From contig NZ_JAGSPA010000003.1 in the NCBI RefSeq assembly GCF_019204005.1, positions 620,001 through 684,000 of the forward strand: DNA of 64,000 nt, in the 5' to 3' direction. Of this stretch, positions 1 through 5,730 are shown one piece after another; position 1 is the first letter of the stretch, and every line of letters begins with the position of its first letter. The stretch comes from Pacificimonas pallii. Lineage in GTDB: Bacteria > Pseudomonadota > Alphaproteobacteria > Sphingomonadales > Sphingomonadaceae. A model generated the notes under the pieces. It made no database searches. It was not told where the DNA came from and saw nothing but the letters and a program-made list of their open reading frames with translations. Position numbers and translations under genes: made by a program.

Positions 1-658
1 CGAAGTTTTTAATACCAAATCGCTTATATAGTGAGAACATTGCTGCTGCTTGCCAATTTGGCCCCTCTCCACCAACGATATCGGAAACGATATCGTCCTT
101 AGAAGCATTAAATTCGGCTGAGATTTCACTATAATGGTTATCAATCCAATTCGAAAGCTGAGTAATCGCAAAATCTTCTACAAATGATTGCTTGCTATAC
201 ATCTGGATATTAAAACCATACCTAACACCGGCATTTGTGAATGGCCAAGTTAATGAAATTGATAGCAATCCAGATTTAATCTGATTTTGATTATTTTGCT
301 CAGCAGATAATTGTATTGACAGCCCTTTAACACTCTCTTCCATCACTACGACGAGTTCGTCGCTATCGAAACCCTCGAATTGATCTAAGCTTCCAACAAC
401 CGCTCTGCCCCTACCGCCAATTAAGAAGCTGCCTGACGCATTGACTGCGCGATCATCGAAAGTCAGACTTCCACCAATAGAAAATACGTCTGTACTTAGA
501 TTAATGCCAACGCCGAAATTTGGCGCGACCTTCATATAATAGCCTTGACTCTCTAGAACATTAAAGATCGCTGAAAATTGCTGAGTCGAAACACTTTTCG
601 CTGCTGCATTTCGTAAAAGATCTGACATCTCTTGAAAACTGACGTGAGTCAACGGCAT
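1..658 (-). CDS. Unknown protein, 3' part beyond window (possible type I secretion cargo)
   Basis: An open frame runs leftwards from an ATG at 658 to the window edge without a stop, giving at least 219 residues starting MPLTHVSFQE. The start overlaps the stop of the lipoprotein gene upstream (TGATG), which suggests translational coupling. There is no N-terminal signal peptide or membrane segment. The visible part is rich in Ser, Asn, Gln and Gly, with a beta-strand-like stretch (GVGINLSTDVFSIGGSL) followed by more acidic helical sequence. I do not recognise the family. The DNA is visibly more AT-rich than everything to the right of about 1.6 kb, so recent transfer is likely. Position at the end of a type I secretion operon and absence of a Sec signal fit an exported substrate, but this is inference; the C-terminus, where a secretion signal would lie, is not in the window. 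Confidence 0.7.
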   Translation of the reverse strand, partial: MPLTHVSFQEMSDLLRNAAAKSVSTQQFSAIFNVLESQGYYMKVAPNFGVGINLSTDVFSIGGSLTFDDRAVNASGSFLIGGRGRAVVGSLDQFEGFDSDELVVVMEESVKGLSIQLSAEQNNQNQIKSGLLSISLTWPFTNAGVRYGFNIQMYSKQSFVEDFAITQLSNWIDNHYSEISAEFNASKDDIVSDIVGGEGPNWQAAAMFSLYKRFGIKNF

Positions 659-1542
659 CATTTATCTCCACTCATGGCATGTATGCGATCACGCATTATC
701 TGCATTAAGTAACGCTTTTTATCTAGATTAAGATCAAACGGATTTTCTCCAGATTTTTTTAATCTTTCTTCAATAAATTCCTCCTTATTTTCTTTGTATT
801 CATCGTTCACGGGAAAAATATTTGAAAATGACACAACATCTATACTATTACCGCTGAACATATGCGGAAATAAGCGCGGGGAATGGATATCTTCGAGGTC
901 CACCCTCATCGTATATTCGGCCAGTCCATGAAGACCTAAACTAGTGAAAGAGGCTGCAACGGCACACGCCTGACCAGAAAGATCAATGTATTTTTCAGAC
1001 TCAGGTATATGTACTACATAACTTCGTTCTTTTGCCCTATAGATTGCGCAGTTATTAGATAAATCATTAACGAGGACTTCAGTTAATCCTGAATCATCTT
1101 TATCTGATATCTCTATGTCCAAATTTAGATATCCATCATTTTCGGTCGCACACGCGCGTCCGCGTATAATAACCTCAAAGTTTTGCTCGCTATTTCGAGA
1201 AAACTTCATGTATAAGTCACTAATAGATGACAATGTATCGCGATGAGAGGAATCAACATCGTCGGCGTTCCAATCAAGGCACTCGCCATTTCTTCTCAAT
1301 CCAATAACTATATCGAATTTCTTTGAAGGCAGGGAGGTAAGCGTTCCACCACCAATAGCCTCTTGGATTAGCTCATCATATACAGAAACAAGGTCGCTAT
1401 TAGATAGAGCTTCCGTTGGCGCCGATGAGCTACAAGAAAGTACAAGCATCGCAGCAGATAATGATAACACAGAAATGAGGCTTAATGGCATTAAGAATCC
1501 TATGCAATTCAATGGCATTTTTACAAGTTTGATTTTTATCAC
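658..1542 (-). CDS. Predicted lipoprotein of unknown function
   Basis: A 294-residue protein. The N-terminus has basic residues, a long hydrophobic stretch and a lipobox ending at LVLSC followed by SSS, so it should be lipidated by Lgt/LspA and anchored in a membrane facing the periplasm. The mature part has several cysteines (for example in GECLDW, RACAT, NNCAIY and QACAVA) that could form disulphides. No catalytic motif or known domain is recognised. It starts with GTG overlapping the stop of a remnant hlyD tail (GTGA) and its stop overlaps the next gene's ATG. The DNA is AT-rich and full of A/T-ending codons, unlike the neighbouring secretion genes. Candidate roles are an accessory or immunity-like protein for the secreted cargo, or cargo-specific surface anchoring; nothing in the sequence proves either. 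Confidence 0.8.
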   Translation of the reverse strand: MIKIKLVKMPLNCIGFLMPLSLISVLSLSAAMLVLSCSSSAPTEALSNSDLVSVYDELIQEAIGGGTLTSLPSKKFDIVIGLRRNGECLDWNADDVDSSHRDTLSSISDLYMKFSRNSEQNFEVIIRGRACATENDGYLNLDIEISDKDDSGLTEVLVNDLSNNCAIYRAKERSYVVHIPESEKYIDLSGQACAVAASFTSLGLHGLAEYTMRVDLEDIHSPRLFPHMFSGNSIDVVSFSNIFPVNDEYKENKEEFIEERLKKSGENPFDLNLDKKRYLMQIMRDRIHAMSGDK

Positions 1543-1748
1543 CGCCCCCTCCCCGCTTCACTCGTCGCCCTCGATATCAGTGACAGGACATGGTCGACGA
1601 TCCGGCGCTGGTCCGTCTTGATTTCCGCCGTCGCCGTCATGCCCGCTGAAATCGCGCGGCACAGGGCGGCGGTCTTGGGGGTCAGGCTATCAGGGGGCGA
1701 CGGACATGCCCCAGTCTCCATACTCATCGATTGCCCCCGCGAATCCAA
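1539..1748 (-). pseudogene. Orphan 3' fragment of a second hlyD-like gene
   Basis: The last 45 residues of this frame match the C-terminus of the intact HlyD-type adaptor (2087-3577) at 37 of 45 positions, with no gaps, including the shared cores TAALCRA and AGMTATAEIKTDQRR. The homologous DNA is 1539-1676 against 2087-2224. Upstream of the match the frame is unrelated, so the rest of the adaptor is missing and this cannot be a working secretion protein. The stop overlaps a GTG start of the lipoprotein gene exactly as the intact hlyD stop overlaps a GTG start of its own downstream gene. The differences between the copies show they are diverged homologues, not a very recent tandem duplication. 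Confidence 0.85.
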
Positions 1749-1877
1749 TATAAAACATGCTTAGCATCATCCACGTAACAATCATATGACATGGAGCAAT
1801 CCGCACGCAGACAATCGCCGCGCCGCGTCTCATCGCACGGCCGTGCGCACCACCGCCAACATCGCCGACGCCCTGCA
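1677..1877. other. Junction region between the two hlyD tails, no recognised gene
   Basis: Mosaic sequence between the orphan hlyD tail and the small gene at 1878. On the minus strand, short frames are open but none is recognisable. On the plus strand a 44-codon frame (1786-1920, ending ALHQWQHKLSIVPLSL) is open; I do not recognise it. Its right end holds the motif TAGTGCCCCTGTCCCTG (1901-1917), which resembles short sequences often seen at the edges of transposase remnants in Proteobacteria. That resemblance is from memory and weak. Confidence 0.3.
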
Positions 1878-2090
1878 TCAATGGCAACATAAATTAAGTA
1901 TAGTGCCCCTGTCCCTGTGATTAAGCTCCAGCTGCGCCCATTTAAAACCCTCCTGAGCGTTTCGCGCGAGCTTTTGCAATTTCGCCTCGGTTTCCGAAAC
2001 AGGCACCGCAGTAAGACGAATACCTGGGTACTTCATGAGTATGCAGGAAATCAGCAGCGACATGCACAGAATCGTTGAAATGCGGATCAC
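1878..2090 (-). CDS. Small protein with N-terminal hydrophobic segment, possibly truncated
   Basis: A 70-residue frame starting at a GTG that overlaps the hlyD stop (GTGA), so translation is probably coupled. Residues 4-18 are hydrophobic and contain LLISC, a possible lipobox or short signal. The middle part (SETEAKLQKLARNAQEGF) is helical and faintly recalls a Sel1/TPR-like repeat. The last dozen residues run into the mosaic junction and look unnatural, so the gene may be the 5' remnant of a longer one. It holds the same position after hlyD as the lipoprotein gene holds after the orphan hlyD tail. Function unknown. Confidence 0.5.
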   Translation of the reverse strand: MIRISTILCMSLLISCILMKYPGIRLTAVPVSETEAKLQKLARNAQEGFKWAQLELNHRDRGTILNLCCH

Positions 2091-2224
2091 CGCTCCCTCC
2101 CCGCTTCACTGGTCGCCTTCGATATCGGCGACAGGAAATAGTCGATAATCCGGCGCTGGTCCGTCTTGATCTCCGCCGTTGCGGTCATGCCCGCCGACAT
2201 TGCACGGCACAGGGCGGCGGTCTG
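2087..2224 (-). repeat. 138-bp hlyD 3'-end repeat, copy within the intact gene
   Basis: Last 46 codons (stop included) of hlyD, repeated at 1539-1676 in the same orientation and still clearly alignable base by base without gaps. Each copy ends in a stop overlapped by the GTG start of a different downstream gene. The two copies form a direct repeat about 548 bp apart, which could support homologous recombination that deletes or swaps the DNA between them. Confidence 0.85.
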
Positions 2225-3577
2225 GGCGGCTTTGCGTGTGTCTTCGCCGGTCGGTGCGCAGTCGAGGGCGACGCGGGCGGTGTAGACCAGGCCGACATTC
2301 TCCTGCTCCACCGCATCGCTGCTGATGCGCGTCAGCGTGCCGGGGATCAGGCCGTGGTCGGTGAACGGGAACGCCTCCAGCTTGACCGCCACCTCCTGCC
2401 CCTCCCGCACGAAGCCGATATCCTTGTTCAATAACATGACCTCCGCGACAAGGTCATGACGGTCACCACGCGGCGCCTTTCTACTGGTGCCTTCGCCGCC
2501 GCCTTCCGGCACCACCACCATCAGCGCCTCGGCAGGCTGCACGACGCCGCCGATCGTGGCAAGCTTCAGCTGCTGCACCGTCCCCGACACCGGCGCGGTC
2601 AGCTGCATCAGCCCCGCGCGGCGGCCCGCCTTGGTCATGTCGCCCACCGCCATGGCGATGCGGTTTTCCGCGTCGGACAGCTCGGCAAGCGCGGCGCGGA
2701 TGGCCTCCTGCCGCGCCTGTGCCTGCCCCTGCCGCGCGGCCGATACGCTCGCGAGCGCCTGCTGCTCGGTATTGCGGGCGATGGCGCCGTTCTTCTCCGC
2801 CTCCACGAGCGCGGCTTCATAGTCGAGCAGTTGCAGTTTCGACTGGAACCCGCGCTCGGCAAGCTCCCGGCGCGCCTCCACCTGCTCGCGCAGCAGCGGC
2901 GCCGTCTCACCGAGCTTTGCGATCTCCTGACGCGCGGCGCCCGCCTGCGCCTGCGCGGACCGCGCCTGATCGGCAAGGCCCGCACTGCGCGCGCGGTACT
3001 CCGCCAGCTGCGCCGCGATCAGCGTCTGCTGCACCCGCGCGACGGCGTCCGGCGTTCCCTCGGGCGCAGTGAACGTGGCATTGCCGCCCTGCAGGCCGCC
3101 CAGGACGGCCCTGGCCCGCGCCGCATCGATACGCGCCGCCAGAAGCGCGCGCTCGGCCTGTCCCGCCTCCGCATCGGCGACGGTCGGGTCGAGTTCGACG
3201 AGCACATCCCCGGCGGCCACCCGCTGCCCCTCCCGCACGTTCAAGGCGCGGACGATGCCGAGTTCCGGCGCCTGCACGGTCTTCACGCGGCCCTCCGGCA
3301 CCAGCTTTCCGGGGGCGACGGCAACGACGTCCATGCGGCCAATAAAGCTCCACAAGAGCGCGATGGCCAGGCACGACATCAGGAACCACAAAAGGCCGCG
3401 TCCGATCGGACTGGGCGGGGTTTCCATCACTTCCAGCGCGGCGGGCAGGAAGTCGGTCTCGTCGATTTTCCGGTGCGTTTTTGCGCGCTCCGTCTCCTGA
3501 CTCCACGCCGCGCGCAGCACCGCCCAGTGCCGCGCGAGCGACGGGAAACGATCGGCCGCGGCCGATGCGACGCTCAT
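2087..3577 (-). CDS. HlyD-family type I secretion membrane fusion protein
   Basis: A 496-residue periplasmic adaptor that should link the inner-membrane ABC transporter to a TolC-like outer-membrane channel. It has a cytoplasmic N-terminus, one membrane segment near residues 60-80 (LLWFLMSCLAIALLWSF), a first lipoyl half-motif (PGKLVPEGRVKTVQAPELG), a long Ala/Gln/Glu-rich coiled-coil hairpin over roughly residues 130-310, the returning lipoyl half (TAPVSGTVQQLKL) and a beta-barrel domain. This is the standard HlyD/LktD layout and length. Its start overlaps the ABC transporter stop (ATGA), so the two are co-translated. No TolC homologue is seen in the window. The 3' 138 bp are repeated downstream. 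Confidence 0.93.
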   Translation of the reverse strand: MSVASAAADRFPSLARHWAVLRAAWSQETERAKTHRKIDETDFLPAALEVMETPPSPIGRGLLWFLMSCLAIALLWSFIGRMDVVAVAPGKLVPEGRVKTVQAPELGIVRALNVREGQRVAAGDVLVELDPTVADAEAGQAERALLAARIDAARARAVLGGLQGGNATFTAPEGTPDAVARVQQTLIAAQLAEYRARSAGLADQARSAQAQAGAARQEIAKLGETAPLLREQVEARRELAERGFQSKLQLLDYEAALVEAEKNGAIARNTEQQALASVSAARQGQAQARQEAIRAALAELSDAENRIAMAVGDMTKAGRRAGLMQLTAPVSGTVQQLKLATIGGVVQPAEALMVVVPEGGGEGTSRKAPRGDRHDLVAEVMLLNKDIGFVREGQEVAVKLEAFPFTDHGLIPGTLTRISSDAVEQENVGLVYTARVALDCAPTGEDTRKAAQTAALCRAMSAGMTATAEIKTDQRRIIDYFLSPISKATSEAGRER

Positions 3578-5730
3578 ACCGGGACTCCCATCTGGCGCTT
3601 GTACATTTCGGCGTAGCGGCCACCGGCGCGGATCAGCGTTTCGTGATCGCCCTCTTCAGTGATCTCGCCCTTTTCGACCGTGATGATGCGGTCGCACTGC
3701 CGCACCGCGCTGAGGCGGTGTGCGATGATCAGCACCGTGCGGCCCTTCGCGATCAGTTTCAGATTGCGCTGCACGATCTCCTCGCTCTCCGCATCCAGCG
3801 CGCTGGTGGCCTCATCCAGAATCAGGATGCGCGGGTTAGTGATCAGCGCGCGGGCGATGGCGATGCGCTGGCGCTGCCCGCCCGACAGATTGCCGCCGCG
3901 CTCGTCGATCTGCGTGTCATAGCCTTCCGCCAGTTCCAGGATGAACTCATGCGCGCCCGCGGCCTGGGCGGCGGCCATGACGCGCTCCTGCGGCAATGTG
4001 GGGTCGGCGAGCGCGATGTTGTCCCTGACCGAGCGGTTGAACAGGATGTTCTCCTGCAGCACGACGCCAACCTGACGCCGCAGCCATGCGGGATCGACCA
4101 TGGCGAGGTCGGTGCCATCGACGCTCACGCGGCCCTGCTCCGGCACATAAAGCCGCTGTACAAGCTTCGTCAGCGTCGACTTGCCGGATCCCGACGGACC
4201 GACGATGCCAAGCATTTCGCCCGCCGCGATCTCCAGACTGACACCGCGCAACACTTCGGGGGTGTCGGGGCGATAGCGGAAACGCACCTGGTCAAAGCCA
4301 ATGCGCCCCTCGATTTTGGGAAGCGCCGCACGGCCCAGCTTCTGATCCGGCTCTGCGGGGGCATTCAGAACATCGCCCAGACGCTCGACGGACACGCGCA
4401 CCTGCTGGAAATCCTGCCACATCTGCGCCAGCCGCAGCACCGGCTGGGCCACGCGCCCCGCCAGCATGTTAAAGGCAACCAGCGCGCCAACGCTAAGCTC
4501 ACCGCCAATCACGGCCTTCGCGCCGAAATACAGGATGGCGACAGTGGTGAGTTTGGAGACCAGCTGCACCGACTGACTGCCCCAGTTCGACAGCCGCACG
4601 ACGTCGAAATTGGTCTTGGTATAGCCTGCGATCTGCTTTTCCCAGCGCTCGCGCATCTGCGGCTCGACCGCCATGGATTTCAGCGTCTGGACGCCTGTCA
4701 CACTCTCGACCAGAAACGCCTGATTTTCCGCTCCGCGCTGGAACTTCTCTTCCAGGCGGCGGCGAAGGGCGGGCGTGATCACGACGGAAATCGCAATATA
4801 AATGGGGATCGAAATCGCCACGACCAGCGTCAGCATCGGCGAGTAGATGTACATCACGCCGAGAAACACGAAGGTGAACAGCAGGTCGATGACGAGGGTC
4901 ACGGAAGAGTTGGTCAGGAATTCGCGAATGGTTTCCAATTCGCGGACACGCGCCACGCTGTCGCCTACCCTGCGGCTTTCGAAATAGCTGAGCGGCAGTT
5001 TCAGGAGATGCCGGAACAGCTGCGCGCCAAGCTCCGCATCCACGCGGTTCGACGTATGCGCGAACAGCCAGGTCCTGAGGCCGGACAGAATCACTTCCCA
5101 CACGGATATGATGACGAAACCGATCGCGAGCACGGTCAGTGTTGTCATCGACTGGTGGACGAGCACCTTGTCGATGACCAGCTGGAAAAAGATCGGTGTC
5201 GCCAGTGCCACCAGCTGCATGAAAAAGCTGGCCAGCAGGACGTCGCGAAGGGCGCTGCGATACTTCACCAATGCAGGAATGAACCACGATACGTCGAACC
5301 GGCGCTGTCCGCCCGCCAGCATCTCGCGCGTGGTCATGAAGATCAGCTCGCCGCCATATTCCGCAGCCAGGGTATCGGCGTCCCAGATTTCGGGCTTGCC
5401 GTCGCCGTCCGGGCGCTGAATCAGCGCTTTTTCGGCGCCGTCCTGCTCGTCGATCTTCGCGAGAATGAAGAAGCGCCCGTCAGTGCCTCGCGCGATTGCT
5501 GGCAGGGGTTGCCGTGAGAGCTTTTCAACCGGGACCCGCTTCAGCCGCGCATTGATCTTCAGAGGTTTCGCGGCGCGCAATATGTCCTGCGGCGTAAACG
5601 GGTCATTGCCCCGCCCGCGTTCGTGAATCAGCTGATTTGGATCGACTGCCACGCGCAGAAATTGCGCCAGCATCAAGAAGCTTTGCAAAGCGGTATCACC
5701 GCCCTGCGCAGCCGTAGACTCATACTGCAT
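3574..5730 (-). CDS. Type I secretion ABC transporter (HlyB type)
   Basis: A 718-residue half-transporter that energises export of a cargo protein from the cytoplasm. The N-terminal about 130 residues look like a C39 peptidase-like domain; the start (LQSFLMLAQFLRVAVDP) has no catalytic cysteine, so it should bind cargo rather than cleave a leader, as in HlyB. Six membrane helices follow (about 150-420). The nucleotide-binding domain has Walker A GPSGSGKST near residue 513, signature LSGGQRQR near 615, Walker B ILILDEATSALD and H-loop IIAHRLS. It is the first gene of the leftward operon with the HlyD adaptor. The cargo is not identified; the AT-rich genes at the left edge are the nearest candidates. 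No bacteriocin-type double-glycine leader peptide was recognised nearby. Confidence 0.95.
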   Translation of the reverse strand: MQYESTAAQGGDTALQSFLMLAQFLRVAVDPNQLIHERGRGNDPFTPQDILRAAKPLKINARLKRVPVEKLSRQPLPAIARGTDGRFFILAKIDEQDGAEKALIQRPDGDGKPEIWDADTLAAEYGGELIFMTTREMLAGGQRRFDVSWFIPALVKYRSALRDVLLASFFMQLVALATPIFFQLVIDKVLVHQSMTTLTVLAIGFVIISVWEVILSGLRTWLFAHTSNRVDAELGAQLFRHLLKLPLSYFESRRVGDSVARVRELETIREFLTNSSVTLVIDLLFTFVFLGVMYIYSPMLTLVVAISIPIYIAISVVITPALRRRLEEKFQRGAENQAFLVESVTGVQTLKSMAVEPQMRERWEKQIAGYTKTNFDVVRLSNWGSQSVQLVSKLTTVAILYFGAKAVIGGELSVGALVAFNMLAGRVAQPVLRLAQMWQDFQQVRVSVERLGDVLNAPAEPDQKLGRAALPKIEGRIGFDQVRFRYRPDTPEVLRGVSLEIAAGEMLGIVGPSGSGKSTLTKLVQRLYVPEQGRVSVDGTDLAMVDPAWLRRQVGVVLQENILFNRSVRDNIALADPTLPQERVMAAAQAAGAHEFILELAEGYDTQIDERGGNLSGGQRQRIAIARALITNPRILILDEATSALDAESEEIVQRNLKLIAKGRTVLIIAHRLSAVRQCDRIITVEKGEITEEGDHETLIRAGGRYAEMYKRQMGVPV

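Follow-up and report, generated by a model that had tools for sequence, protein, structure and literature searches.

In a 64,000-nt stretch of the Pacificimonas pallii genome (contig NZ_JAGSPA010000003.1, positions 620,001 to 684,000; in the following called the window, with positions counted from its first letter), a type I secretion operon is followed by an orphan copy of the hlyD 3′ end, a putative lipoprotein gene and a giant RTX gene. Comparison with related loci makes it rather likely that these genes form a polymorphic FrpC/FrpD-like type I system, in which the lipoprotein encoded upstream would provide immunity and an exchangeable N-terminal domain of the giant would be the effector. 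The purpose of the predicted effectors is probably warfare between bacteria. As in polymorphic toxins, a variable region sits on a conserved body, a linked gene co-varies with it (in one group of loci only) and orphan modules occur.

The genes of the window discussed here lie on the minus strand. The export genes, an hlyB-type ABC permease/ATPase gene (3574 to 5730; TIGR01846, 1048 bits, cut-off 726) and an intact hlyD gene for a periplasmic adaptor of 496 amino acids (2087 to 3577; TIGR01843, 326 bits, cut-off 209), form one operon, and both exceed their NCBIfam cut-offs. The 3′ end of this hlyD (2087 to 2224) recurs 410 bp away in the same orientation as an orphan tail of the last 46 codons including the stop (1539 to 1676). 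An earlier sequence-only reading of this DNA had described the two tails as direct repeats with 37 of 45 residues identical, and a recount (17 of 138 nt differ) and blastn (144 nt, 87.5%, E = 6e-46) bear this out. The ratio of nonsynonymous to synonymous divergence (dN/dS) between the orphan tail and the intact hlyD is 0.27. That the stop of each tail is overlapped by a GTG start (GTGA) also held at both copies. Because GGGGAGGG followed by this overlap is present at both tails, the hlyD end probably supplies the ribosome binding site and the start of the next gene.

The gene that starts at the orphan tail encodes a putative lipoprotein of 294 amino acids, the proposed immunity protein (658 to 1542; LSCS lipobox-like motif at residues 35–38; G+C content at third codon positions, GC3, 0.34), for which searches of Pfam and NCBIfam gave no match and a PDB sequence search gave no match to FrpD. 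It lies directly upstream of the giant RTX gene, with an ATGA overlap at 658–661. Just the 5′ end of the giant gene lies in the window (1 to 661); the gene runs on to G000:C5:606178 and encodes 4827 amino acids in all. The sequence-only reading had placed the cargo gene directly behind the hlyD tail, but the actual cargo is this giant, which continues beyond the window and was invisible to that reader. Over its first ~1000 codons the gene is AT-rich (GC3 for the most part 0.28–0.45), and the RTX part that follows is GC-richer. The protein contains a Hint/BIL domain at amino acids ~361–497 (Pfam E = 4e-5; BIL-type structures matched), 34 stretches of RTX nonapeptide repeats (PF00353, E = 2e-161), cadherin and Ig-like repeats, and an FrpC-type module near amino acids 4543–4701, close to the C-terminal end (PDB 6SJW, E = 1e-22). 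By eye, Asp-Pro seems to be missing from the cleavage position in the copies of this module, and self-processing is only predicted.

To place this arrangement among relatives, hlyB-hlyD homologs were collected from family genomes (found in 20 of 201 at E ≤ 1e-40), their surroundings were read and 17 loci were compared in 136 pairs. The usual order is hlyB-hlyD, one or more small genes and a giant RTX gene. Both hlyD and its last 45 residues (mean identity 67%) were homologous in all 136 pairs, the gene before the giant in 10 and the first 300 residues of the giant in 11. All 10 fall within these 11, so that each homologous upstream gene is paired with a homologous giant N-terminus. The sequence-only reading had proposed to look for variation in the genes that follow a conserved hlyD tail, and this is the pattern found; the same fixed arrangement everywhere was not seen, as arrangements differ among the species compared. 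The homology among the giants begins abruptly at about residues 350–600. In the window giant, amino acids 1–590 matched none of the relatives' loci, amino acids 590–1050 matched 10 and the FrpC-like module 21. A GHSLGG lipase-like N-terminus occurs in five loci (L048, L051, L052, L105 and L106), and an SLT transglycosylase domain starts the giant of L057; PDB sequence searches with the N-termini of other giants gave nothing useful. A DNA search of 40 relatives returned weak matches to the conserved hlyD and nothing else, and a contig scan with hlyD as query returned a single locus. In several relatives a HlyC-type toxin acyltransferase gene stands between hlyD and the variable genes (L058:15673-16197, with a Pfam hit; L048:3742-4428 and L050:15651-16304, by similarity); the window operon showed none.

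Two congeners, G172 and G260, document a replacement within one genus. Their HlyD proteins are 92.6% identical and their lipoproteins 34%. At the DNA level, 83% identity extends across hlyB-hlyD-hlyC to 921 nt after hlyD, which is the end of hlyC, and the 3′ ends of the giant genes (7778 and 4787 amino acids) match at 82.6% over 2310 bp. Between these flanks, in the lipoprotein gene and the front half of the giant, the only similarity consists of one match of 84 bp and matches of 62–69% between RTX repeats. This is a replacement between two conserved flanks, hence exchange and not decay.

Displaced copies were found as well. Besides the orphan in the window, the P. pallii genome holds four further truncated hlyD 3′ ends, at 315.7 kb and 318.8 kb of contig C4, 119 kb of C6 and 399 kb of C1. 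One of the C4 orphans (C4a) comprises hlyD residues 376–496, a Sel1 lipoprotein gene, a gene for a 157-amino-acid lipoprotein and a 48-codon effector start that is cut at a REP-like (repetitive extragenic palindromic) motif. The C1 orphan comprises hlyD residues 367–496, a 155-amino-acid lipoprotein gene joined by a GTGA overlap, a 43-codon effector start and a REP-like motif, and the C6 orphan a window-type tail with its left neighbor, a 156-amino-acid lipoprotein gene (again GTGA), about 8 effector codons and a REP-like motif. In the other C4 orphan (C4b) the hlyD end and its surroundings are degenerate, with an internal stop and no REP-like motif nearby. Thus, in three of the four the lipoprotein gene is intact, the effector gene start is destroyed and a REP-like repeat adjoins. 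The lipoproteins at C6 and C1 are distantly homologous (25–26%), and their homologs among 300 family genomes lie only inside the source genome itself. An Rhs-core-end-like fragment (WYEGSGTNDRRFLHADARGSVMAQSDS, identified by eye) adjoins the C1 orphan at L010:7690-7850, which suggests an island of polymorphic-toxin remnants, and an IS630-like transposase reading frame (by eye) lies just downstream of the C6 orphan at L009:9775-10401.

Relatives contain stacks and orphans of their own. L051 has two lipase fragments with lipoproteins ahead of its intact pair, in L055 a truncated giant of 881 amino acids precedes a second pair, and displaced cassettes occur in L057 too. An orphan hlyD end in genome G107 (L065) is complete with a lipoprotein and a 2580-amino-acid giant, and those in G060 (L107) and G068 (L108) have other partners; a fragment in L108 resembles, by eye, the FGE-type gene of L053. 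The further orphan tails sought after the sequence-only reading are therefore present, four of them in the source genome with different lipoproteins and others in other genomes. Its idea that displaced cassettes are left behind gains from these orphans and stacks, but the unit combines a lipoprotein gene with the N-terminal part of a giant.

The window itself seems to contain a broken cassette of this kind. The 70-amino-acid open reading frame after the intact hlyD (1878 to 2090; homologous part about 1923–2090) had been read as a separate, unrelated cargo gene. This is ruled out: a Sel1-type lipoprotein gene is broken here, and the reading frame is what remains of its beginning. The first ~56 codons correspond to the 5′ part of a longer Sel1-like gene for a lipoprotein at an orphan hlyD end on C4 (L008), to which window positions 1923–2452 are 93% identical in DNA over 530 bp. 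The break adjoins a REP-like motif at 1894–1909. Intact Sel1 forms after hlyD exist in G107 (L055; Sel1 Pfam hit) and on the mobilizable Sphingobium plasmid pTomTYG46b (L122), which carries the whole operon in the order hlyD, Sel1 lipoprotein gene, a gene for 125 amino acids and giant, each overlapping the next by four bases. On that plasmid (AP027326.1) the annotated start of the giant is about 640 codons late (L122:16230-18159; 18159 instead of 16230), which hides the whole variable N-terminus.

The strongest rival for the dispersed orphans is decay with retained immunity genes, by which whole duplicated or acquired type I operons decayed in place and the hlyD tail is a chance survivor, with no exchange through hlyD. 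The orphans keep the native order of hlyD end, Sel1, lipoprotein and effector start, C4b has its internal stop and degenerate surroundings, and divergence of the tails was constrained, as expected for paralogous operons. The orphan tails differ from the resident hlyD by a synonymous divergence (dS) of 0.20–0.65 at dN/dS of 0.07–0.33, single values being uncertain at these short lengths. Since the differences are mainly silent, the tails probably stem from diverged working hlyD genes, in which most of the divergence arose, and are not recent copies of the resident gene. However, neither an hlyB remnant nor an hlyD 5′ part was found beside any orphan in the source genome. The window and C6 tails, on different contigs, share their truncation point. 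They also share their left neighbor, a unit of about 240 bp that joins the REP-like motif to the orphan tail in the window (1677 to 1916, minus strand) and has copies at L009:8724-8936 (C6, same tail junction; 81%) and, as most of the unit without a tail, at L010:9140-9332 (C1; 86% over 162 bp). Moreover, decay leaves the replacement between conserved flanks in G172 and G260 unexplained. With arrangements varying and no hlyB remnants beside the orphans, the outcome in which the orphan tail is what remains of a deleted full hlyD was not encountered, and we regard operon decay as possible but on balance unlikely. Selective retention of the lipoproteins would hold under it too.

Another explanation concerns function: the giants might be adhesins or nutrient or biofilm proteins, the lipoproteins surface anchors or chaperones, and the variability a matter of attachment specificity. 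The cadherin and Ig-like repeats would fit, and FrpD was once proposed as a cell-surface anchor of FrpC (PMC5233953). Lipase-like and lysozyme-like N-terminal domains, in contrast, fit an immunity-effector pair better, as do stacked displaced cassettes and orphan lipoproteins kept where the partner is destroyed; an orphan anchor has no obvious use. This explanation appears unlikely to us.

A role of the REP-like motif in scattering hlyD-tail pieces, with a RAYT-type transposase instead of homologous recombination and with no role for the tails, is less probable still. The motif TTAAGTATAGTGCCCC in the window (1894 to 1909, plus strand) belongs to a set of just ~19 in the genome (TTARGTATAGTGYCCC, 19 copies in 3.0 Mb at ≤1 mismatch, 0 in the control), and four of the five extra hlyD tails have such a motif no more than about 1 kb away. 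The genome's only Y1_Tnp (RAYT-type) gene, at L070:801-1517 (G000:C4, about 340.8–341.5 kb), is located between inverted, slightly altered REP-like copies. Yet the tail ends differ (46, ~100, 123 and 130 codons), with a common boundary at the motif for the window and C6 alone, C4b has no motif nearby, and relatives show the pattern while no dependence on the motif was found there. Motifs and tails may simply gather in tolerant islands; the motif may mark a route of movement or merely such islands. At L068:8109-9047, an AT-rich gene whose start looks TIR-like by eye adjoins two REP-like motifs, with conserved GC-rich genes on either side. Finally, the two same-orientation copies 410 bp apart might suggest that the hlyD end was simply duplicated in tandem on the spot, but this can be rejected with little hesitation, given that the copies are 12% different and bear a purifying signature, that the orphan's junction and final GRGR codons recur in the C6 copy on another contig and that four more copies lie elsewhere in the genome.

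For the FrpC/FrpD-like system with exchangeable cassettes we envisage the following course. HlyB and HlyD would export the giant RTX protein. The exchangeable unit would consist of the gene or genes after hlyD, encoding a lipoprotein or membrane protein as proposed immunity factor, and the giant's N-terminal few hundred residues as proposed effector, behind which a shared body of linker, RTX repeats and FrpC module and the type I signal would stay in place. As the variable domain sits at the N-terminus, the cassette would be flanked on its 5′ side by the end of whichever export gene comes last (hlyD, or hlyC if present) and on its 3′ side by sequence inside the giant gene. Exchange may proceed by homologous recombination, possibly aided by REP-like repeats, the incoming cassette bringing a stretch of the donor hlyD. 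Older cassettes would survive in orphan form, either farther upstream in the locus or at other sites; they would retain the lipoprotein gene and lose the effector start. In the window, an older cassette of hlyD and Sel1 lipoprotein, broken at the REP-like motif, would thus precede a second one, made up of a separate hlyD tail, the lipoprotein gene and the giant now in place. The wider proposal of a mirror-image class of polymorphic toxins, in which an RTX N-terminal toxin and its upstream lipoprotein immunity gene are swapped, the hlyD 3′ end acts as homology arm and immunity start site and displaced immunity cassettes are left around the genome, seems to us evenly balanced between right and wrong.

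Several observations weigh against this interpretation. In G172 and G260, the only informative pair, the left boundary lies after hlyC and not after hlyD. The exchange through the hlyD 3′ end put forward in the sequence-only reading is supported as regards cassette replacement and variable partners, while hlyD is at most a candidate for the exact crossover site. The congeners G017 and G303 show no exchange (immunity gene 77%, giant 80%). All homologous pairs in the comparison come from the one lipase-like group of five loci and are not independent, and all comparisons are between species, not strains of one species. Several hlyD homologs (L059–L061) have no giant downstream, and some genes after hlyD lack a clear lipobox. 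The 294-amino-acid lipoprotein has no homolog in 300 family genomes, homologs of the proposed effector domain at the N-terminus of the giant are likewise lacking, and an AlphaFold2 model of the lipoprotein, computed without relatives, is unusable (predicted local distance difference test, pLDDT, 32).

If the interpretation is correct, type I secretion joins the carriers of exchangeable toxin-immunity cassettes, in reversed polarity with immunity first and the toxin N-terminal. It would also give a testable role to the numerous giant RTX proteins of sphingomonads and their relatives and bear on the function of FrpC and FrpD. Immunity genes and effectors that have no detectable homologs could then be located with ease by means of the hlyD tail.

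Among known systems, contact-dependent inhibition (CDI; CdiA-CT/CdiI) and Rhs share a conserved delivery body, a variable tip linked to an immunity gene and displaced orphan modules carrying a bit of conserved flank. Here, in contrast, export is of type I, the tip is N-terminal with the immunity gene upstream, in mirror polarity, and the 5′ flank is an export gene instead of the toxin's own core. With hlyB and hlyD as export genes and an N-terminal variable part, membership in CDI/two-partner secretion is ruled out. MARTX toxins are likewise RTX proteins of large size that leave the cell by type I secretion and have exchangeable effector domains, but their effectors are central, directed at host cells and without immunity genes. 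Cdz of Caulobacter kills neighbors by type I secretion and has a dedicated immunity gene, but uses small glycine-zipper peptides and the inner-membrane CdzI instead of giant RTX proteins with cassettes (PMC5380434). The Stenotrophomonas pair Smlt3024/Smlt3025 combines an effector resembling N-terminal domains of RTX proteins, several of them from Sphingomonas, with an FrpD-like lipoprotein immunity protein (PMC6759196); it is delivered by type IV secretion (X-T4SS), and its effector has no RTX body. Closest is frpD-frpC of Neisseria meningitidis, in which a lipoprotein gene directly precedes that of a type I secreted RTX protein and FrpD binds the FrpC N-terminus with a Kd of ~0.2 nM (PMC5233953); FrpC has been proposed as an antibacterial effector and FrpD as its immunity protein (PMC6759196). 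The earlier statement that no described type I system works in this way needs qualifying, as frpD-frpC is a precedent for the architecture (PMC5233953, PMC6759196), while no type I system with hlyD-tailed cassettes was found in the open-access literature, which is weak evidence of absence. The giant described here shares with frpDC the lipoprotein gene directly before the RTX gene and the FrpC-type module, but its lipoprotein and N-terminus vary strongly from species to species and are encoded behind hlyB-hlyD, and a Hint/BIL domain and orphan cassettes with hlyD tails are added. What seems new is thus the polymorphism, the N-terminal polarity and the orphan cassettes tagged by hlyD tails.
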